64,000 bases of DNA from Helicobacteraceae bacterium. Its GTDB lineage: Bacteria > Campylobacterota > Campylobacteria > Campylobacterales > Sulfurimonadaceae. The notes under the pieces are model-generated. The model did not search any database. It saw nothing but the letters and a program-made list of their open reading frames with translations, and was not told the origin of the DNA. The stretch is from NCBI GenBank assembly GCA_027038835.1, contig JALWGC010000013.1, positions 1-64,000 of the forward strand, written 5' to 3'. A program made the position numbers and the translations under genes. Shown here piece by piece: positions 24,548 through 35,408 of this stretch (within the stretch, counting starts at the first letter, position 1; every line of letters begins with the position of its first letter).

Positions 24548-25735
24548 ATGAATAGAAGGCATTTTTTACGATTCTCGGCGGTAGCGGCAACCTCTTTGTA
24601 CGCTTCACAAGGTTTCGTTACCCAGCCAAAAGACGACCAAACGGTAAGCGAAGTCGCCTTTGCCGAAAAAAAACCGCTTATTACCTACTCCAACCGCCCT
24701 CCCCTGTTGGAAACACCCATAGAGTATTTCGATAGAGCCGTTACACCCAACGAACTCTTTTTCGTTCGATGGCATATGCCGATAATCCCTACGGTCAAAT
24801 GGATAGACGGTTTTCATCTGAGTGTCCAAGGGGAGGTGGAAAACAGCCTGTTTCTTTCAATGAAAAACCTCAAAAACGACTTCACTCCCGTTGAAATCAC
24901 CGCCGTCGTACAATGTGGCGGCAACTCAAGAAGTGCGTTTCATCCCACCCCAGTCGGTATCCAATGGGGGAACGGAGCGATGGGGTGTGCGAAATTTAAA
25001 GGAGTAAGACTAAAAGAAATCCTCGAAAAAGCGAAACTCACCGACAATGCCAAATGGCTGCTCTTTGGCGGAGGCGACAAACCCGTCAAAGCGGATATTC
25101 CCGATTTTCAAAGGGAGCTTTCTATCCATGAACTTCGAGACGACATTATCGTGGCGTACGAACAAAACGGGGAAGATATCCCGTTTCTAAACGGTTATCC
25201 GCTGCGTCTTATCATCCCCGGTTATTTCGCTGACAGTTGGGTAAAACAGCTCGATTCCATAACCGTGACAAAAGAGTACACTCCAAGCTTCTTTATGGAC
25301 GTGGCGTATAGAATGCCAAAAAACGGGTGTCGCTGCGAAGAACCCCAAAAAAAAGTCAAAGAGAGTGAACCGCTAAGCTGGATGGAGGTCAAATCGGTCA
25401 TCGCCAAACCGAAAAACCATGCCAAATACAAAGCGGGAAGCAACATCCAGATAAAAGGGGTCGCTTTCGATGGCGGTAGCGGCATAGCCAAAGTGGAAAT
25501 CAGCCTCGATGGCGGCGCAAGCTGGAAAGAAACAAATCTTGGTAAAGAACTCGGAAAGTACGCCTTTAGGGTTTTTACCTACAACCTCAAACCTCTCAAC
25601 AAAGGCAAACTCACCATAATGGCACGTGCAACCAACAACAAAGGGCAAACACAACCTTTCGCACATGAAATAGGGTGGAATCATGGAGGTTATGCCTACA
25701 ACGGCATAGATACGATAGAATTGGAGATAGTATAA
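24548..25735 (+). CDS. sorA: sulfite:cytochrome c oxidoreductase, molybdopterin subunit (SorA type)
   Basis: The 395-residue protein starts with a twin-arginine-like leader (MNRRHFLRFSAVAAT), implying Tat export of a folded cofactor protein. The Moco-binding cysteine is C123 in VVQCGGNSRS. The oxidoreductase molybdopterin domain (about 60-265) is followed by the Mo-co dimerisation domain (about 280-395; GVAFDGGSGIAKVEISLDGG). It oxidises sulfite to sulfate in the periplasm. The next gene encodes a monoheme cytochrome, as in the Campylobacter jejuni pair Cj0005c/Cj0004c. SoxC is a related alternative, but no other sox gene is near. Confidence 0.9.
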   Translation: MNRRHFLRFSAVAATSLYASQGFVTQPKDDQTVSEVAFAEKKPLITYSNRPPLLETPIEYFDRAVTPNELFFVRWHMPIIPTVKWIDGFHLSVQGEVENSLFLSMKNLKNDFTPVEITAVVQCGGNSRSAFHPTPVGIQWGNGAMGCAKFKGVRLKEILEKAKLTDNAKWLLFGGGDKPVKADIPDFQRELSIHELRDDIIVAYEQNGEDIPFLNGYPLRLIIPGYFADSWVKQLDSITVTKEYTPSFFMDVAYRMPKNGCRCEEPQKKVKESEPLSWMEVKSVIAKPKNHAKYKAGSNIQIKGVAFDGGSGIAKVEISLDGGASWKETNLGKELGKYAFRVFTYNLKPLNKGKLTIMARATNNKGQTQPFAHEIGWNHGGYAYNGIDTIELEIV

Positions 25736-26037
25736 TGAAAAAGTTTTTTTTAGTGTTCGCTCTTTTGGGTACGCTTCAAGCCAAAACCTACACCAAAGAC
25801 GTTGTTATGCCGAATATGTCGTTTTCAATCCCCGTCGATAAGAACATAATCGTTATGCAACGAAACTGCCAATGGTGCCACTCTTACGGCTACATTATAA
25901 ATATGGGTAAACAAAACGAAGCGTTTTGGAGACACATAGTTCATAAGATGCGCGACACCTTCAAAGCACCAATCAGCGAACAAGACGAAAAAATCGTCTT
26001 GGAATACCTGATGAAATATTTTGGCAAACAGGATTAA
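25735..26037 (+). CDS. sorB: monoheme c-type cytochrome, sulfite dehydrogenase partner (SorB type)
   Basis: The 100-residue precursor has a signal peptide (MKKFFLVFALLGTLQA) and one heme motif, CQWCH (residues 45-49). A methionine-containing helix follows (HKMRDTFKAP). The ATG overlaps the sorA stop (TAATG), so the two are coupled. It should accept electrons from sulfite oxidation and pass them to the respiratory chain. The longer frame starting at 25675 lies inside sorA and was rejected. Confidence 0.88.
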   Translation: MKKFFLVFALLGTLQAKTYTKDVVMPNMSFSIPVDKNIIVMQRNCQWCHSYGYIINMGKQNEAFWRHIVHKMRDTFKAPISEQDEKIVLEYLMKYFGKQD

Positions 26038-27983
26038 AAACTCAAATCGACCGTCGTGTAAAAATAGCGTCCGGGTTCGTTAAGAAGCATCTTTTCGCTT
26101 CCGCCGGCAGCCACGAGCGTCAAATCTGCATATGTGTTGCTTCTGGCGTACGTTACGTCAAAAACGTTGTTCACGCCGATGATGAGGTCTATCCCTTTTT
26201 TGAAGTTGTGTTTGAGCTTCATATCGAGCGTACTCCACCCAGCAATCGCCTGCTCGCCGTTGTCGGCGTCGTAATCGCTCCATCTCTTTCTTGCTTCCAT
26301 ATCGACTCTAACATACGAATGCACGCCGTAGTCCCAAATAACGCCTATCTTTCCTTGAAGCGGCGCGATGTCGGCTAAATCTTTGTCGCTTTGCCCCTCA
26401 AGGGGATGTTTTTTGCGCCCTTTTTTGTATGCACCGTTTGCTTCGACGGTAATCTCGTCTGTTGCGTAGTAACTGAGTGTAAACTCCCCGCCGTAAATCG
26501 TCGCGTCGATATTTTCGAAGATGTTTTGCGTTTTGTTTGCATTAATATAGATGTAGTTTTTCAAATCGCTATAAAACCCTTTTAGCTTCAAATCGACCAT
26601 ATCCCCTTCGAACTTGTAACCGATGTCCGCTTCGCGGTTGGTCACTTGGTCGAGATTTGGCGTACCTTTGAGCTTACCCGCTTTTTTGAAGTACAACTCT
26701 CTCGCATCGGGTACGCGCTGTGCTTGACCAAAACCGAAGAAAATCGTGTTGGCATCATCGAGCGTATAGGTAGCGAAGATGTTCGCTCCAAGAGAGTTGT
26801 AGTCGTTGTCTTGCAATGCCGCCGTGTCGGGGCGGATTTCACTTTTGTCGTATCTTCCACCAACGGAGATATCGAGCGAAGCGAGGCGTTTGTCGATTTT
26901 AAGATACGTACTATAGTTTTTCGTATCGACATCATCGAGACTTTTCGCGCCGTTTTGGTACGCACCGTCCCAATTTCTCAGCCCGTACTCCAAACCGAAA
27001 TCGGTAGCAAAACCGCTAAAATCGAAACGGTTTTTCAGTCTTAATGCATCCATACTGCTATGCATGTGGTTTTGAGCATATTTCATCTTCGATGAGATTC
27101 TCAAACTGTTGGACATTGGATGATCCACTTTCGATTTGTAGTACTGCAACACTACGCTTTTGTACCAAGGAGTGAGGTTTTTTAGCTCGTATTCGATGTT
27201 GTAGATGTCCGAATCGTCACTATCGGCATCCATCGGGGTATTTGGGTACAGCACTTGCGTACTTCTGTTTGCGGTATAAGATAAACGAAGTTCTTGGTTT
27301 TGCGCAGGATTGATGAAAAACTTGGTCATAAAGCTTTTTTTGGTGTACGCCTCGGCGTCGAAATACTCCGGTTTGTAGTGGTATTTCGTATCCGCTTTCG
27401 CTTCTACTTGCTGCGCGAGCGTTTTACCATCACCATCTTCATACTGGTCGCTGTTTTCAAAAGAACCCGAAACGAGTGCGCGAAGCGTGTCATCCCCGCC
27501 GCTTACCGTCGCGGCAATTTTTTTGTAGTTCCAGCTTCCACCACCAAAACTCACATGCCCATTCCACCCTTTTTTGGGCGCAAGCGTGGTTATCTTCACC
27601 CCGCCGCCAAGATTGCCGTACTCGCTCACATCGTACGGTCCTTCTATCACTTCCACTTTTTCGATGTTGGAGTTGAGCACATGGGAGATGGGTGCGTCCA
27701 TTCTGTTTGGGCATGCACCGTACACTTTCGCTCCATCGACACTGACACTGATGTTGTCCCGTTTTTGTCCCCGAATGATTACATCGTTAGCGATACCGCT
27801 TCGGCGACTCATATCGATAGAGGGTACTTCGCCGGCAAGCACTTCACCCAAATCGGCATTTGTTTGCGCACTCTTTGCCACCTCATCGATAGCCGTTGCA
27901 CTGACTGCAACAGGATTTAAAACCACATCTTCACCAAAAAGCGAGAGTGTCGCTACCAAAGAGAGTAAAACGGCTCGTTTCAT
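26034..27983 (-). CDS. TonB-dependent receptor, OprC/NosA-like (probable copper receptor)
   Basis: The 649-residue protein has a signal peptide (to about residue 17), a plug domain (about 25-140) and a 22-strand barrel ending in FYTTVDLSF. The plug contains SVSVDGAKVYGACPNRMDAP, the hallmark of OprC/NosA copper receptors. It carries the CxxxM metal ligands (C91, M95), and a Met/His cluster (NHMHSSMD) occurs in the barrel. Such receptors import copper, for example for nitrous oxide reductase. An upstream direct repeat may bind an OmpR/PhoB-type regulator. Copper specificity is inferred from motif; a siderophore role is not excluded. Confidence 0.82.
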   Translation of the reverse strand: MKRAVLLSLVATLSLFGEDVVLNPVAVSATAIDEVAKSAQTNADLGEVLAGEVPSIDMSRRSGIANDVIIRGQKRDNISVSVDGAKVYGACPNRMDAPISHVLNSNIEKVEVIEGPYDVSEYGNLGGGVKITTLAPKKGWNGHVSFGGGSWNYKKIAATVSGGDDTLRALVSGSFENSDQYEDGDGKTLAQQVEAKADTKYHYKPEYFDAEAYTKKSFMTKFFINPAQNQELRLSYTANRSTQVLYPNTPMDADSDDSDIYNIEYELKNLTPWYKSVVLQYYKSKVDHPMSNSLRISSKMKYAQNHMHSSMDALRLKNRFDFSGFATDFGLEYGLRNWDGAYQNGAKSLDDVDTKNYSTYLKIDKRLASLDISVGGRYDKSEIRPDTAALQDNDYNSLGANIFATYTLDDANTIFFGFGQAQRVPDARELYFKKAGKLKGTPNLDQVTNREADIGYKFEGDMVDLKLKGFYSDLKNYIYINANKTQNIFENIDATIYGGEFTLSYYATDEITVEANGAYKKGRKKHPLEGQSDKDLADIAPLQGKIGVIWDYGVHSYVRVDMEARKRWSDYDADNGEQAIAGWSTLDMKLKHNFKKGIDLIIGVNNVFDVTYARSNTYADLTLVAAGGSEKMLLNEPGRYFYTTVDLSF

Positions 27984-28049: not shown

Positions 28050-28796
28050 TTACTGACTGAAAATCTCTTTCATCTCTTTGTAAAGCAGCTCGAAATGTTT
28101 CTGTTTTTCCTCTTTGGAAAGGGTCGATTTTTCGCTGAAGAACTCTTCGATATCGTCATAATCGTTTCGCATCAACTTCAACTGCCATGTATTGTCGTTT
28201 TGCAAGATGAGGTCTTTGTAACGAAAATGCTCCATGATATCGTCGGCTATATAGTCGCGAATCGAGTTGATAGGATGGTCGATGTAGATTTTCTCTCCGT
28301 TTTTGTCGCGCGTGTAACCCCGAACGATATAGTCTATAACGACGATGTCGGTGTCGAAAAAGTGGAAAATCTCATCGAGTGCTGTAAGAGGCGCTATCTC
28401 GCCGCAAGTGGAGATGTCGATATCGACCCGAAAGCTCACAAAGCCGTTTGGACCTTCGAAGTCGGGGTAGGTATGCGCGGTGATGTGGCTTTTATCGATG
28501 TGCGCGGCAACCGACTTGCATACCAAATCGTCCGCTTTTATGTCACTTAGAAGCAGCATCGAACTCGCACCGTAAGGCTCGTAATCTTGGGAAGAGATAT
28601 CCAAAATATTCGCTTCGATGATATCGACTATCTTTTTGAGTAGCTCCGTTATCTTTTTGGCACTGTAACGCTTGTTGATATACTCTACGTAACTGAGTTT
28701 CTCCTCTTCGCTGGGTGCGATGACGAAATCGTAGAAACTAAAACTCAGCTGTTTTTTGAGGTTGTTGAAACCCTTGAGTTCTATTTTTTCTTTCAT
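28050..28796 (-). CDS. speD: S-adenosylmethionine decarboxylase proenzyme
   Basis: The 248-residue proenzyme is of the long (E. coli-like) class. It cleaves itself before S103 in HIDKSHITAHTYP to create the pyruvoyl cofactor. DISSQDYEPYGAS, VDIDISTCGEIAPL and DYIVRGYTRD match the family. It makes decarboxylated S-adenosylmethionine, the aminopropyl donor. It is the last gene of the polyamine operon and overlaps the deacetylase gene by 4 bp. Confidence 0.96.
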   Translation of the reverse strand: MKEKIELKGFNNLKKQLSFSFYDFVIAPSEEEKLSYVEYINKRYSAKKITELLKKIVDIIEANILDISSQDYEPYGASSMLLLSDIKADDLVCKSVAAHIDKSHITAHTYPDFEGPNGFVSFRVDIDISTCGEIAPLTALDEIFHFFDTDIVVIDYIVRGYTRDKNGEKIYIDHPINSIRDYIADDIMEHFRYKDLILQNDNTWQLKLMRNDYDDIEEFFSEKSTLSKEEKQKHFELLYKEMKEIFSQ

Positions 28797-29794
28797 GTAT
28801 GCAATCCTTTGAAAAATCTGTATGCGCTCTCTTTGAGATTTGGCAAATCATACCCACCCTCGAGGACGACAAGCACTTTCTTGTCCACCTTTTTGGCTAT
28901 TAGCGAGGCGATCTCTTCGAAGTGGTGTGTATCTATATGGATGAATTCGTCTTGGCAGTAATCGCTTTGCAAGATATCAAAACCAAGCGAAAGAAGCATC
29001 ACGTCGTAGTTCATCTTCGCTATGTGTTCCAAAGCTTCTTCGAGCTTGCCCAAGTACTCCTTGGCACTCGTTTTATGCTCAAGATGCCACAGATGCACGT
29101 TCGAAGAAAACGTAGCGTCTGCATCGAGGTAGGGGAAGTTCTTCCAAGGGTCAATATGCAGTGAAACGTACTCGAACCACCCCTGCTTCGCGAACTCCGC
29201 CGTACCGTCTCCTATATGGTAGTCGATATCGAGTACCAAAGGGCGTAATCCACGCTTTGTGGCTTGTTTTGCGGCGAGAACGACATTGTTGAAAAAGCTG
29301 TATCCGCCATACATCGAAGGCATCGCATGGTGTCCGGGCGGTCTGGTAAGCGCGAATGCGAAACGATCGTTTCCACCAAGCAGATACTCAAGTGCCGTTA
29401 TGGTCGTCATAGCGCTGTTTCGAGCCGCTTTTGGCGTGTTTTTTTGGATGGGCGTACCGATCTCTCTGGTGTACATCCCCCCTTGAAACCGCACCGGTCC
29501 ACCCTCGAGACGTTTACCGAAAATACTTGGGATATACTCCTCCTCTTCATCCAATTCGGCACAAAGCGTCTCCAAAAACACCACATACTCTTTCGTATGC
29601 AACTCCAACAAAGTTTCATCGTCGATGAACGTTTCCACATTTTCCACTGCCACTTCTTCGCACGCCTCACGCACCCCTTCTAAAAGCAACTCCAGTCGCT
29701 TCGATATCTCCATGAAATCAAAAGGGGGAAATCCGTCCGAATAATCTTTGGTCGGATTGTGCAAAGCCTGGTATTGCGGGTAAAAAACTTTCAT
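28793..29794 (-). CDS. acetylpolyamine amidohydrolase (class II HDAC-like)
   Basis: The 333-residue protein belongs to the arginase/deacetylase fold. The catalytic pair is H155-H156 (RPPGHHAMP) and zinc ligands are D191 and H193 (LDIDYHIGDGT) and D273 (LGFDILQSD). GGYSFFNN and the final LEGGYDLP are also typical. Of the HDAC-like families it most resembles bacterial acetylpolyamine amidohydrolase, which removes the acetyl group from N-acetyl-putrescine or -spermidine. Placement between ureohydrolase and SpeD supports a polyamine substrate. It overlaps both neighbours by 4 bp. Confidence 0.85.
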   Translation of the reverse strand: MKVFYPQYQALHNPTKDYSDGFPPFDFMEISKRLELLLEGVREACEEVAVENVETFIDDETLLELHTKEYVVFLETLCAELDEEEEYIPSIFGKRLEGGPVRFQGGMYTREIGTPIQKNTPKAARNSAMTTITALEYLLGGNDRFAFALTRPPGHHAMPSMYGGYSFFNNVVLAAKQATKRGLRPLVLDIDYHIGDGTAEFAKQGWFEYVSLHIDPWKNFPYLDADATFSSNVHLWHLEHKTSAKEYLGKLEEALEHIAKMNYDVMLLSLGFDILQSDYCQDEFIHIDTHHFEEIASLIAKKVDKKVLVVLEGGYDLPNLKESAYRFFKGLHT

Positions 29795-30702
29795 TCGTAC
29801 TCCCTCATCGTTTGTGAACCGTTTCGTTTTTTCATATCGAATCCATAACGTATGCCGTAGTAGGAAACGATCTTCTGTACAAGCTTCGCCGCCGCTATTT
29901 GCGATACACCGCTATCTGGAACGAGCTCGACCAAATCGACCCCAACAACACGGATTTTTTCATTACCGAGCAGCGCTTTTAGGTATCGCAGCATATCGTA
30001 CCATTCGATTCCGCCCGGTTGAGGCGTACCCACCCCCGGCACGACAGAAGGTGAAAACGCATCCATATCGATACTTATATACACATCACCACTCAGCGAA
30101 GAAAGCTTCTTTTGGAGTTTTTTTCGCATCTTTTTCTTTTGGAGCGCCAAATCGCTATAAACCGTGATGTTTTTGGAGTTTTTCAACCGCACAAACTCCT
30201 CTTCGAAAAAAGAGCGAAGCCCTATGGCGACTATTTTGTGCCCTTGGCGCTCCAAATTGTACATAGCGCAAGCATGGTTGTTGCTTTCTTTATGATAGCT
30301 TGTTCTATAATCGGCATGCGCATCGAAAAACACCACCGTCCCTTTTTCGAGGCGTTGCTTCACCACGAACGGACTTATGGAGTGTTCCCCGCCAAGGGTG
30401 ATGAGTAGCTGTTTCTTTTTCAACTTCGAAAGGGTCTTGCTCACTCTTTTTTGCAGTTCTTGGAAACTACCTACTGGCTGAAATCGCTGCAACGTATGCA
30501 GTTTCATATGCAAAAACGGGCTCCACCCCATCTCCTCTTCGAAATACTCTATATCCATCCCCGCTTCGACTATCGCTTTTGGGGCTTGCGCCGTCCCTCC
30601 TAAACCGCAAACGGTCAGTTCGCACCCAAGAGGGAAAAGCACCACATCCGCTTTTGAAAGTTCGACGTTTGGCAAACCTTGAAACAGCACTTCCTTATCC
30701 AT
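29791..30702 (-). CDS. speB: agmatinase-family ureohydrolase
   Basis: The 303-residue protein has the di-manganese site of arginase-fold ureohydrolases: GGEHSIS, FFDAHADYR and SIDMDAFSP. Agmatinase converts agmatine to putrescine plus urea; in some thermophiles the homologue acts on N1-aminopropylagmatine to give spermidine. Since the operon's aminopropyltransferase is of an unusual type, both are possible. It overlaps the neighbouring genes by 8 and 4 bp. No arginine decarboxylase gene is in the window. Confidence 0.87.
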   Translation of the reverse strand: MDKEVLFQGLPNVELSKADVVLFPLGCELTVCGLGGTAQAPKAIVEAGMDIEYFEEEMGWSPFLHMKLHTLQRFQPVGSFQELQKRVSKTLSKLKKKQLLITLGGEHSISPFVVKQRLEKGTVVFFDAHADYRTSYHKESNNHACAMYNLERQGHKIVAIGLRSFFEEEFVRLKNSKNITVYSDLALQKKKMRKKLQKKLSSLSGDVYISIDMDAFSPSVVPGVGTPQPGGIEWYDMLRYLKALLGNEKIRVVGVDLVELVPDSGVSQIAAAKLVQKIVSYYGIRYGFDMKKRNGSQTMREYE

Positions 30703-32686
30703 CTTTTCCGTCCTCGCTTTTGAAACTCAAATACACAAGTGCCACGACACAAAAAACTATAATACCAAGCTGATAAGCAGGCGTTACGATATCGCCATAT
30801 CCAAGTTTGTTGACGATACCGAAGATATCCGAAAGCGCACTCGTACTCACAAGTGCCGTCGCGGAGAGGAACAAAAACCGAAACCACTTACGGGTGTTCT
30901 TTTCTTGATGTTTTTTGAACACTTCCAAAGCACCAAGCGTTTTTTCCTTACTTTTTTGGAGATTGAGCCGCTTGTAGATTGCTTCCATAAAACGCGTGTG
31001 GTCCGGAAACTGGGTCATCAAACCGTTGTCCATAATCTCCACCAACCGCTCCAGCCACGCTTTTTGCTTGTCGATATATTCAAATTCGTCTTCACAACTT
31101 TTTTCATCGTCAAAACGCTTTTTCGCCGCTTTGTAATCAAGCATCGATTCCAAGCGCAGAATGTATTTGTTAGCGTTGAGATCGAGCAGATTGAAAACCG
31201 CCATCGCCATGAAAACGGAGTCCATCGCTTGGGTTCTTACCCATTCCGCCTCTTCGGGCAAAACCAACAGCGCTTGGTCGAGATCGATTTTGATCACCTC
31301 CTCTTCATAGTAACGAATAGGCGATAGATTCTCGAAGCTCTTCGTTTCGTACATCATCCAGTTGTCTATGCTTGTACGCACCTCTTTGACTTCACTTACA
31401 ATCCCCCGGTAGCTTTGCAGCTCTTTAAGCCGCTTCATACCGTAAAGCGCTTCGTATCCCTCTTCTTTCTTGGTTGCGAACTCGTAGAGATTCGATATCA
31501 CAAACGGCGAGAAATCGACCTCATCGTAAAAAAGGGGGTTATGGCAAGTGGGGTTTCGTTTTTTCAAATGGGTTTCCAAAGTATCGAAAACGTATCTCGC
31601 GATCTCTTGCATGAACGAAAACTGCCGATTGGCAAAAACGTAACGTTCACTCAAAGCGAAGTTCGCCCCAAGCCCAAGAAGCGCCCTGTATGCGGTAACG
31701 CTCACGCCCCTTTCATCGACGTGTTCCAGCGGCAAAGAGATATCGACTATGAACACCCCCATCGTATAATAATGCAAGGTAACTTCGAACACTACATCCA
31801 AACCCTCTTGAAAAAACCCCTCAAGCGTGCACCCTCCAAGCTCCCATATATGGTGGGTGATAAAATACTTGAACTTCAAATCGCTCCAAATATCTTCCAT
31901 CACCAATTCGATAGGCGAAATACCAAAAAGCGATAACGCCTCTTTATCTTCGCTTCCAAGACGCTCTTCGAGCCATTCTTGCGTTTTCGTATCGACTACG
32001 GCGTAGTAGCTAAAACTCACCGTTCCGTTTTGGATGAAAAGCTCTTGAGGGCGCTGTTCTTCATAGAAACGATCGAGTGTAAAAAGGTGTGCTTTGAGGT
32101 CGTAGGCAAGGATATAGTGCTCTTTTTCTCGAAGCTTTTGGACAAAACCGAGTACGTCGGCTTTGAGTGATTCGTACGGAAGATTCTCTTTTCGAGTCCA
32201 TCTATGCGCATACAGCTTGGCAACGATGTACATCCCGTTCGCAAAAAATTCATACGCTTCCAAACGCTCTTTGAGTGTTCTTGCTTGCTCTTTTTCCAAA
32301 TCGGCATCTATCAAAGAAACGAGCGCTTCTTTCGTATGCCCAAGCATCGAATCGACACCGCGATGCAACCGTACTTCGTTTTGGGTATAGATAGCTTTAT
32401 CTATGGCGAGTCGGTCTATCTCCACCTTGCAAAGCGCCGCAAAAAGAGGTGCGTTGAAAATACACTCCCTCTTTTCCAACTCATCGATGATTCCACGAAA
32501 TATTTTCGTCGCATCGTCGTAGCGATACGAACTCTCGACCGTCTCCAAAGCGGTGAAAAAAAGCTCGACATGCTTGAAAAAGGCGATATCGGCTTTTTGG
32601 GTTTTCGCCCACTCCTTCGCATCGCCGTACTCTTCGTGTAAATAGTACTCCAAAAAGCGTTCTATCGCCTTTTTACGCTCTTGCAA
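30695..32686 (-). CDS. unknown 663-residue protein with two C-terminal membrane helices
   Basis: I recognise no family. Residues 1 to about 580 are a charged, mostly helical soluble region rich in Glu, Lys and aromatics (EEYGDAKEWAKTQKADIAFF near the start). Two membrane helices follow at about 592-612 (FRFLFLSATALVSTSALSDI) and 630-652 (LGIIVFCVVALVYLSF) with a short charged tail, a layout reminiscent of CorA-like proteins but without a GMN motif. It sits inside the polyamine operon, overlapping speE-like by 14 bp and speB by 8 bp, so co-production is likely. A transport or membrane-sensing role is only a guess. Confidence 0.75.
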   Translation of the reverse strand: MQERKKAIERFLEYYLHEEYGDAKEWAKTQKADIAFFKHVELFFTALETVESSYRYDDATKIFRGIIDELEKRECIFNAPLFAALCKVEIDRLAIDKAIYTQNEVRLHRGVDSMLGHTKEALVSLIDADLEKEQARTLKERLEAYEFFANGMYIVAKLYAHRWTRKENLPYESLKADVLGFVQKLREKEHYILAYDLKAHLFTLDRFYEEQRPQELFIQNGTVSFSYYAVVDTKTQEWLEERLGSEDKEALSLFGISPIELVMEDIWSDLKFKYFITHHIWELGGCTLEGFFQEGLDVVFEVTLHYYTMGVFIVDISLPLEHVDERGVSVTAYRALLGLGANFALSERYVFANRQFSFMQEIARYVFDTLETHLKKRNPTCHNPLFYDEVDFSPFVISNLYEFATKKEEGYEALYGMKRLKELQSYRGIVSEVKEVRTSIDNWMMYETKSFENLSPIRYYEEEVIKIDLDQALLVLPEEAEWVRTQAMDSVFMAMAVFNLLDLNANKYILRLESMLDYKAAKKRFDDEKSCEDEFEYIDKQKAWLERLVEIMDNGLMTQFPDHTRFMEAIYKRLNLQKSKEKTLGALEVFKKHQEKNTRKWFRFLFLSATALVSTSALSDIFGIVNKLGYGDIVTPAYQLGIIVFCVVALVYLSFKSEDGKDG

Positions 32687-33530
32687 AACTCTCCCTTACA
32701 CCAAGCGGTAAAACGAACATCTTCGCCACATCCTCTCCATCGAGCATCTTCAACTCGACATTGCGCGAATCTATCCTCTCTTGCAGGGTTTTGGCATCTA
32801 TTTTCACCTCTTCGTCACTTGCAAGCACATACCCCCAAAGGCTGTAGAAGCTCGGCACTACCACGCCGTAACTCTTCACATGGGCAAAAACCTCTTGTAA
32901 ACTTTTGCGAACGTTTACATGATTGACGTTGTTGACCGTATTGAGCGCGCCTGCTTGAGTCGCGACGATTGCACCGGGGTTGAGCAGTTTTTTCAACCTT
33001 TCGTAAAAACTTTCACTATAAAGGTTGGCCAAGAACGAATCCCAATCGTCCACATCGACCAAATCCCCTATCACCACATCGAAGCGCTCTTTCGTCGTAT
33101 CGAAATATTCGTTTATATCCATATAATGCACTTCGAGCTTTTCATTCTCCCACACCCCCTTCGACCACGAAGGGATAACCCGTTTGCACACCTCGACGAA
33201 CTCTTCGTCTATGTCCACCATCACCGCTTTTTCCAGCGTCGCGTTATGTTTTAGCACCTCTCTGGCGGTAGCTCCCTCGCCACCCCCCATGATAAGCACC
33301 GTTTTGGGGTTTGGATGCAGTAGCATCGCAGGCTGCACAAGCGCTTCATGGTAAATCGCCTCGTCCGCTTCACAAGATTGGATATCCCCCTCGATGGCTA
33401 TACACACGCCGTTTTGATACGATTCGAAAAAGAGATACTCCTGATAAGGGGTTTTACCTTTGGAGAGAATCTCTTTGATGTCTCTGACAACGCCGTCTCC
33501 AAGTGTACTTTTTTGCTCATATTTCAACAT
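32673..33530 (-). CDS. aminopropyltransferase of the ACL5/thermospermine-synthase type
   Basis: The 285-residue enzyme has the decarboxylated-SAM site (VLIMGGGEGATAREVL) and a family-typical N-terminal beta domain. Its polyamine site is not that of ordinary spermidine synthase (VDSTDPxGP). It instead reads FDVVIGDLVDVDD, GAIVATQAGA and VPSFYSLWGYVLASD, close to ACL5 thermospermine synthase and archaeal or thermophile aminopropyltransferases. It may make spermidine, thermospermine or N1-aminopropylagmatine. Genes for the donor (speD) and a ureohydrolase are in the same operon. Overlaps of 14 bp link it to both neighbours. Confidence 0.85.
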   Translation of the reverse strand: MLKYEQKSTLGDGVVRDIKEILSKGKTPYQEYLFFESYQNGVCIAIEGDIQSCEADEAIYHEALVQPAMLLHPNPKTVLIMGGGEGATAREVLKHNATLEKAVMVDIDEEFVEVCKRVIPSWSKGVWENEKLEVHYMDINEYFDTTKERFDVVIGDLVDVDDWDSFLANLYSESFYERLKKLLNPGAIVATQAGALNTVNNVNHVNVRKSLQEVFAHVKSYGVVVPSFYSLWGYVLASDEEVKIDAKTLQERIDSRNVELKMLDGEDVAKMFVLPLGVRESFARA

Positions 33531-34122
33531 GTAATTCCTTTGACAATCTTATTTTTTCAGGTAGTTTTTCCAACTGCATCGCAATACGTTTGTCCGCAGG
33601 ATTCAAAAAATACCCCTCGATGTAAATAGACTCTATAACCTCTGCTAAAAATTCCTTTTTTAGTTCTTTCGAACCCTTCGCCATACAAAGCAGATGCATC
33701 GAAACGACACCTTCGTCGTCGTATTTCGGAACGGCATAATCTATTTGCACCTTTTCAAAACCGAGTTTAGCATAAAAAACCGCCTGCCTGTCCTCCGCTT
33801 CGATAAACATCCACGAAAATTCGCTCTTTTCGAACCGATTTATAGCATCTTTACACAGTTTCGTGCCTATCCCCTCTCCGCGCATCGCTTCATCGACGGC
33901 AAGATAGGTAAAAAGAACATACCCGAGACTTGGATGCAAATCAAGGATGTAAAACCCTACACTTTTGCCTTGGAGTATATACGCAAAAACCACGTATCGC
34001 CCGCTTTGGACTCGCTGACGTATCATATCGAGCGGTTCTTTCTCCCACTTTGGAAACGATGCATCGTAGATATCCATCGACTCTTGAAAATATTTCGAAT
34101 CCACACTTACTTCAACTATCAT
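33517..34122 (-). CDS. GNAT-family N-acetyltransferase
   Basis: The 201-residue protein has a GNAT domain (about 1-140) with the acetyl-CoA pyrophosphate loop VDEAMRGEGIGTKL (RxGxG/A form) and a later MFIEAEDRQAVFYAKLGFEK. About 60 extra residues follow. The substrate is unknown; its position beside an aminopropyltransferase and an acetylpolyamine deacetylase suggests a polyamine or diamine. It overlaps bioA by 4 bp and the aminopropyltransferase gene by 14 bp. Confidence 0.82.
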   Translation of the reverse strand: MIVEVSVDSKYFQESMDIYDASFPKWEKEPLDMIRQRVQSGRYVVFAYILQGKSVGFYILDLHPSLGYVLFTYLAVDEAMRGEGIGTKLCKDAINRFEKSEFSWMFIEAEDRQAVFYAKLGFEKVQIDYAVPKYDDEGVVSMHLLCMAKGSKELKKEFLAEVIESIYIEGYFLNPADKRIAMQLEKLPEKIRLSKELHVEI

Positions 34123-35408
34123 TTCAAGCTCTTTTGGAGAAGTTTCGCCGTTTTATAAATGGCATCGGTAAGCGCCCTCAACTCTTCTTCCTCTATGATA
34201 AACGGCGGCATGATATAGATGAGGTTCATAAACGGCCGTACCCACACGCCGTTTTCCAAAAAGCTCTGTGTCGCCGTTTTCATATCGACTCTGTGCGTTA
34301 GCTCTACAACCCCTATAGCTCCAAGGGTTCGCACCTCTTTGACGTTTGGAAGTGCTTCACATTTTGCAAGCTCGGTTTTTAGCTGGTTTTGTATCTTTTC
34401 TATCTTTGCAAAAGGTGGGTTTTGCATCAACAGTTCCAAGCTTGCGTTGGCTACGCTACAAGCAAGCGGATTTGCCATAAATGTAGGTCCATGCATCAAG
34501 ACATTGCCGTTTTGTTCGATCATTTGGGCTACCTTTTGGTTCGTAACCGTCGCGCCAAGGGTCATATACCCTCCCGTTATCGCCTTGCCAAGGGTGATGA
34601 TATCGGGCACGACCCCCGCGTGCTCGTAAGCGAACATCCTGCCGGTTCTTCCAAACCCCGTAGCTATCTCGTCAAAAATCAAAAGGGTATCGTAACGATT
34701 TGCAAGCTCCCTTAAACCTTGTAAAAAAACGGGAGAGTAAAACCGCATCCCACCGGCACCTTGCACGACGGGCTCGATGATGATAGCGGCTATCTCGTTT
34801 GCGTGTTCTTGCAAAATCGCTTCTACCGCTTCTAAATCTTTCGTAGCGTCGTTGCTTGTAAACTCGCTTTTAGGGGCTGGAGCGAAAAAGTTCTTGTGCA
34901 AAACATCGCTAAAGAGCGAGTGCATCCCCGTTACCGGATCGCACACCGACATCGCCCCGAACGTATCGCCATGATATCCTCGCTCGAAGCTTAAAAACTT
35001 CGATTTTTCCTTTTTTCCCCGCTCCACTTGGTACTGCAGCGCCATTTTAAGTGCCACCTCGACACTGACCGAACCGGAATCGGCAAAAAATACATACTCA
35101 AAACTATCATCAAGGAGTGTGAGCAGTTTTTTTGTCAGCTCTATGGCACTCTCATGGGTCAGCCCTCCAAACATTACATGGCTCATTTTCTCCATCTGAT
35201 TGCGAAGCGCTTCGTTGAGTCTTGGATGGTTGTAGCCGTGTATCACCGACCACCAAGAACTCATCCCGTCAATCACCATTTTTCCTTCTTCAAGCTCCAA
35301 GTACACCCCTTTGGCACTTTTGACAAGGGGGTGTTTATAGGGGTGCAAAACGCTTTCGTATGGGTGCCAGATATGGGTTTGGTCTATTTGTGTATCAGTT
35401 TTAAGCAT
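34119..35408 (-). CDS. bioA: adenosylmethionine-8-amino-7-oxononanoate aminotransferase
   Basis: The 429-residue class III PLP enzyme makes 7,8-diaminopelargonate in biotin synthesis, using S-adenosylmethionine as amino donor. Diagnostic segments are IWHPYESVLHPY, DGMSSWWSVIHGYNHP and the PLP lysine in TLGKAITGGYMTLGA. It starts inside the end of the YoeB-type toxin gene (8-bp overlap) and is coupled to the GNAT gene, so it heads the polyamine operon. Other bio genes are not nearby. Confidence 0.95.
   Translation of the reverse strand: MLKTDTQIDQTHIWHPYESVLHPYKHPLVKSAKGVYLELEEGKMVIDGMSSWWSVIHGYNHPRLNEALRNQMEKMSHVMFGGLTHESAIELTKKLLTLLDDSFEYVFFADSGSVSVEVALKMALQYQVERGKKEKSKFLSFERGYHGDTFGAMSVCDPVTGMHSLFSDVLHKNFFAPAPKSEFTSNDATKDLEAVEAILQEHANEIAAIIIEPVVQGAGGMRFYSPVFLQGLRELANRYDTLLIFDEIATGFGRTGRMFAYEHAGVVPDIITLGKAITGGYMTLGATVTNQKVAQMIEQNGNVLMHGPTFMANPLACSVANASLELLMQNPPFAKIEKIQNQLKTELAKCEALPNVKEVRTLGAIGVVELTHRVDMKTATQSFLENGVWVRPFMNLIYIMPPFIIEEEELRALTDAIYKTAKLLQKSLK

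Follow-up and report, generated by a model that had tools for sequence, protein, structure and literature searches.

Among the closest described systems is the hybrid dcAdoMet/aspartate-semialdehyde pathway of Deferribacter desulfuricans and Clostridium leptum, which has been shown biochemically in these other phyla (PMC11999265). It has SpeA, CASDH, CASDC, SpeD, and an aminopropyltransferase in common with the genome that contains the window (the whole 64,000-nucleotide stretch of DNA that was analyzed), and agmatine is likely to be the shared starting compound. The text of that paper describes no acetylation enzymes in hybrid pathways and does not mention Campylobacterota. The window differs from the systems described there in that the SpeD and aminopropyltransferase genes lie in one operon with genes for BioA, SpeB, a GNAT acetyltransferase, an acetylpolyamine amidohydrolase (APAH), and a 663-aa protein. 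The Thermus aminopropylagmatine route, which uses SpeE and an aminopropylagmatinase, is also similar, because the solved SpeE that is closest to the window protein is the Thermus enzyme and a SpeB-type ureohydrolase is linked to it here. This likeness comes from sequence similarity alone, however, and the window genome also carries CASDH and CASDC.

Two other kinds of systems share parts of the locus. The APAHs of Mycoplana ramosa, Marinobacter subterrani, and Pseudomonas have the same fold and catalytic residues as the window protein, but it is only about 27% identical to the solved APAHs, carries DIDYHIGDG where DVDxHHGNGT is usual, and has a replaced PIS site. Its gene is linked to polyamine synthesis genes and not to a catabolic cluster. 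PSP-linked operons that combine an AdoMet decarboxylase with a GspS-like ATP-grasp ligase, as they are outlined in PMC11237479 (Li et al. 2019 cited there), resemble a locus in a second genus (g2, below) that likewise has speD and a terminal ligase. Unlike these operons, the loci that we retrieved show no recognized PspA, DUF350, or lipoprotein gene, and they add speE, speB, bioA, and sometimes an APAH gene. The window locus has the GNAT and is without a ligase.

The overlapping gene run

A polyamine operon of six overlapping genes at 28050-34122 had been predicted from the sequence, and the positions, strand, overlaps, and Pfam and NCBIfam matches from which we identified the genes all agree with that description. 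The first metabolic gene of the polyamine run lies outside this interval. It is bioA (34119-35408), which encodes adenosylmethionine-8-amino-7-oxononanoate transaminase (TIGR00508, 577 bits against a cut-off of 405), overlaps the GNAT gene, and adjoins speD or speB in genus g2 as well. After it on the same minus strand come the GNAT acetyltransferase gene (33517-34122; PF13673 and PF13508 over cut-off), a gene for a SpeE-type aminopropyltransferase with a GGGEGA motif (32673-33530; PF01564), the gene for the 663-aa protein, which has a TTG start and no assigned family (30695-32686), and speB for an agmatinase-family ureohydrolase (29791-30702; TIGR01230, 175 bits against a cut-off of 174.3). 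The run is completed by the gene for an APAH-type zinc amidohydrolase, which has the histone-deacetylase fold and belongs to a subfamily of its own (28793-29794; PF00850), and by speD for an E. coli-type S-adenosylmethionine decarboxylase (28050-28796). From bioA to speD, successive genes overlap by 4, 14, 14, 8, 4, and 4 bases. The presence of the SpeD, SpeE, SpeB, and APAH families in one overlapping run supports its assignment as a polyamine operon. Because a speE-speB-bioA-speD core is found again in another genus, the run is more than a chance arrangement.

Core synthesis enzymes and genome complement

The solved structure most similar to the window SpeE is that of the Thermus enzyme (224 bits), followed by plant ACL5 (180 bits) and E. 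coli SpeE (118 bits). The GGGEGA motif of the window protein also occurs in all g2 SpeE copies. This motif is associated with thermospermine synthases, yet it fails to separate them from spermidine and aminopropylagmatine synthases, and aminopropyltransferases of the SpeE family use free agmatine, putrescine, or spermidine (PMC11107197). Judging from these similarities, the window enzyme is likely to be an agmatine and/or spermidine aminopropyltransferase, and it could be an ordinary putrescine aminopropyltransferase. The window genome encodes no PF00491 protein besides SpeB, which has the metal-binding motifs GGEHS, DAHAD, and SIDMD and likely acts as an N1-aminopropylagmatine and/or agmatine ureohydrolase. 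One other genome (G021) has a SpeB orthologue within a bioA-speB-ligase arrangement, and no SpeD or SpeE was detected in that genome. If neither is present there, then its SpeB should use agmatine or aminopropylagmatine made by CASDH and CASDC. The window SpeD scores 252.4 bits with TIGR03331, about 3 bits under the curated cut-off of 255.8, and it retains both the KSH processing site and an STCG catalytic Cys (SSCG in two g2 copies).

The remaining enzymes of a hybrid pathway are encoded elsewhere in the genome. A biosynthetic arginine decarboxylase SpeA (TIGR01273, 659 bits) is unlinked to the operon, and the CASDH and CASDC genes are neighbors, with the CASDH scoring 399 bits against the strict carboxynorspermidine synthase cut-off of 800. 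The hybrid dcAdoMet/aspartate-semialdehyde set of SpeD, aminopropyltransferase, CASDH, CASDC, and arginine decarboxylase is thus complete in the window genome, which adds such a gene set in Campylobacterota. The nspC (CASDC) model matches 56 of 60 genomes, including this one, and 53 of these matches are over cut-off. We therefore take the aspartate-semialdehyde route to be ancestral and the operon to be a dcAdoMet module added to it.

A related locus in genus g2

Early searches of 60-298 sampled genomes found no close relative of SpeD, the APAH, or the 663-aa protein, and a first contig search with the APAH also found no relative. The operon, which had at first looked isolated, no longer did so once SpeB was used as the query against the 228 family genomes. 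SpeB relatives with 41-50% identity occur in 18 genomes of genus g2, where the speE-speB-bioA-speD core recurs. The full g2 locus has the order speD-bioA-(other genes)-speE-speB-ligase, and six g2 loci have bioA-speB-ligase with no speE alongside. Many contigs are short, however, and a gene that is absent beside a locus is not necessarily absent from the genome. The g2 ligase belongs to PF03738. For the one copy that was tested, the nearest solved structure is that of YgiC, which PMC12568646 cites, together with YjfC, as a peptide-spermidine ligase.

The window proteins are 60-66% (SpeD), 52-57% (SpeE), 41-48% (SpeB), and 43-45% (APAH) identical to the g2 copies, and they are farther from these than the g2 copies, on average, are from one another. 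By these distances, the window locus is an old and reshuffled relative rather than a recent copy. A recent foreign import of the operon had been considered because the sampled relatives lacked SpeD, the APAH, and the 663-aa protein, and the family-wide SpeB search overturned this idea for the core genes; an older transfer of these genes is possible.

Several g2 loci vary in composition. A fatty acid cis/trans isomerase gene follows speB in place of the ligase in two of them (L203:1383-3773, PF06934, and L208:1045-3435, same cluster). In six others (L210-L212, L214, L216, and L217), bioA and speE are separated by a SulP-type transporter gene on the opposite strand, and the ligase gene is followed by two-component genes.

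The survey also bears on what acetylation might do. The original prediction had offered, as one of two possibilities, a biosynthetic route through acetylated intermediates. Here, the GNAT would mask one amine (of putrescine or agmatine, for example), SpeE would aminopropylate the other end, and the APAH would unmask the product, making acetylation obligatory. The shared overlapping run of GNAT and APAH with SpeD, SpeE, and SpeB is what such a route would lead one to expect. However, 16 of the 19 other loci that we retrieved keep bioA-speB or speE-speB with neither an APAH nor a GNAT gene adjoining, and this persistence of the core makes an obligatory acetylated intermediate unlikely. The chemistry of SpeE and SpeB is also explained through aminopropylagmatine with no acetylation (PMC11107197, PMC11999265), and we found no published description of an acetylated route. 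On balance, we regard it as very improbable.

The APAH subfamily

An AlphaFold2 model of the window APAH (pLDDT 89.8) retrieves only APAHs at Foldseek ranks 1-16, with TM scores of up to 0.90, compared to about 0.72-0.81 for histone deacetylases. Alignments show conservation of the catalytic residues, namely the tandem histidines H155 and H156, the zinc ligands D191, H193, and D273, and Y315. The PIS motif described for characterized bacterial polyamine deacetylases (PMC11532494) is replaced by YCQ and then DEF (DYCQDEF) in the window protein and by Y(C/T)QDEY in four g2 proteins to which it is 43-45% identical. Because of this replacement, we classify the protein as a subfamily of the APAH fold with a specificity that is predicted only.

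APAHs of the window type (at least 43% identity) are encoded in five of the 228 family genomes: the window genome, G412, G476, G492, and G499. All five belong to the 19 genomes in which this SpeB is encoded (p = 2.4e-6, with no correction for kinship among the genomes). An alignment-based search recovered 80 distant APAHs from other phyla, of which 24 have a class-III aminotransferase gene nearby and none has a linked SpeD, SpeE, or SpeB gene.

Acylating partners of the APAH

In G492 and G499, the APAH gene lies between speB and the ligase gene, and in G476, these two genes abut each other on a different contig. The ligase gene of G412 is reduced to a truncated, YgiC-type remnant (L204:6812-7071), which stands between the APAH gene and a convergent GNAT gene, and the product of this GNAT gene is 45% identical to the window GNAT. 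This genome looks like an intermediate between a ligase and a GNAT partner. An acyl-attaching enzyme, either a GNAT or a YgiC-type ligase, is therefore encoded beside the APAH or in an operon with it in all five genomes, if the one remnant ligase is counted. The APAH is the constant part and its acylating partner differs, in a small sample that divides into three genomes versus two. This pairing favors the control cycle of acetylation and deacetylation that was the other possibility in the original prediction.

Weaker, independent support for a capping-uncapping pairing comes from other genes. Four g2 genomes (G392, G391, G426, and G502) encode another protein of the histone-deacetylase type with a length of about 580 aa. 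The one examined, a 578-aa protein from G392 (L249:6723-8459), is a GNAT domain fused to a histone-deacetylase-type domain. A comparison of its GNAT domain with the window GNAT, made to see whether the two are related, detected no similarity. Some alphaproteobacterial plasmids also carry GNAT and APAH genes that overlap.

The window GNAT matches no NCBIfam model over cut-off, including those for polyamine acetyltransferases of the SpeG, BltD, and PaiA types; its best match is rimI with 33.9 bits against a cut-off of 86.4. A relative with 30% identity is encoded among unrelated genes in G055. Codon usage and G+C content of the GNAT gene differ from those of bioA, speE, and the gene for the 663-aa protein. 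The difference in G+C could fit a salvage function, in which the APAH would release polyamines from acetylpolyamines that the cell imports, whereas the GNAT would have another target, for example a protein N-terminus or a toxic amine. Alphaproteobacterial APAHs are also found near class-III aminotransferase and transporter genes, as would befit catabolism. We consider salvage doubtful in the window, however, because the operon contains no transporter gene, and because a GNAT type that is scarce among relatives but stands beside this locus in two genera is unlikely to be there by chance.

The ligase could instead be the main source of the APAH substrate. If the APAH mainly hydrolyzes the product of a YgiC-type peptide-spermidine ligase, then in the window genome it might serve another PF03738-family ligase, which is encoded at C18:44869-46008, and the GNAT would be incidental. 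The APAH gene abuts the ligase gene in three of the four g2 genomes that have it, with the remnant in the fourth, and the similarity of the ligase to YgiC, a peptide-spermidine ligase according to work cited by PMC12568646, points in the same direction. The C18 ligase, however, is 46% identical to the g2 ligase, comes from another branch of the family, and is encoded in an unrelated cluster that also occurs in the other members of the genus, all of which lack the APAH. Most g2 loci have the ligase and no APAH, and the APAH model resembles acetylpolyamine enzymes with narrow pockets. This explanation seems unlikely to us.

A second YgiC-like ligase gene occurs near the gene for the carbamoyl-phosphate synthetase large subunit in the window genome and its genus (L244:7861-9042 and L246:7027-8205), and a similar arrangement is present in G412.

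Proposed function

We propose that the operon is a dcAdoMet polyamine module, added to an ancestral CASDH/CASDC pathway, in which SpeD, SpeE, and SpeB make spermidine and the GNAT and APAH control a reversible N-acyl cap; we give this reading roughly an even chance of being correct. SpeD would supply dcAdoMet and the unlinked SpeA would supply agmatine, to which SpeE would add an aminopropyl group, possibly also acting on spermidine. SpeB could then remove urea from N1-aminopropylagmatine to yield spermidine, or from a longer guanidino-polyamine, and the product might be extended to a tetraamine (thermospermine or spermine). The title of Hamana et al. 2006, as cited in PMC11999265, reports spermine in Campylobacterota. 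The GNAT and APAH may add an acyl (acetyl) group to the polyamine product and take it off again, which could serve to store, detoxify, or turn over polyamines. In genus g2, a YgiC-type peptide-spermidine ligase would take the place of the GNAT as partner of the same APAH subfamily. Our data establish the gene identities and overlaps, the shared locus, the genome complement, the APAH fold with its intact catalytic residues, and, in a small sample, the change of partner, whereas we infer all substrates, the direction in which the pathway runs, and its role in the cell.

A bolder form of this proposal, which we put forward tentatively and think improbable, is that one APAH subfamily reverses caps from enzymes of two unrelated kinds. 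In one genus the cap would come from an ATP-grasp peptide-spermidine ligase, whereas the window genome and G412 would use a GNAT for it. To our knowledge, no hydrolase partner is known for stand-alone YgiC-type peptide-spermidine ligases, and the APAH would be a zinc amidase partner for them if this form is true. A deacetylase gene that is placed beside a ligase or acetyltransferase gene in a conserved biosynthetic locus offers a testable case for why organisms that make polyamines keep a polyamine deacetylase.

The 663-aa protein and flanking genes

The 663-aa protein had been described as a membrane protein, but it is mostly soluble with one clear hydrophobic segment at its C-terminus (about residues 631-658), which is not typical of membrane proteins. 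It matches no Pfam or NCBIfam family over cut-off, and a weak GtrA_DPMS_TM match in Pfam (E = 0.005, below the cut-off) was dismissed. Searches of 297 further genomes from the phylum, of plasmids (tblastn), and of the g2 loci found no relative of the protein. A single-sequence AlphaFold2 model has a pLDDT of 42, and a fold search with it gave nothing significant (best E = 0.04). The codon usage of the reading frame resembles that of bioA and speE, and the frame is thus probably a genuine gene.

The gene for a YoeB-like toxin (PF06769, 35401-35661) shares 8 bases with the start of bioA, and the apparent end of an antitoxin gene lies just upstream of it. The G+C content of the toxin gene is far lower, at 0.31. 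Given this overlap, the polyamine run may be driven by a toxin-antitoxin promoter. Elsewhere in the window, translations inspected by eye indicate a probable sulfite dehydrogenase pair at 24548-26037 that consists of a molybdopterin subunit and a small heme protein. A gene for a TonB-dependent receptor (26034-27983) comes next, on the opposite strand.
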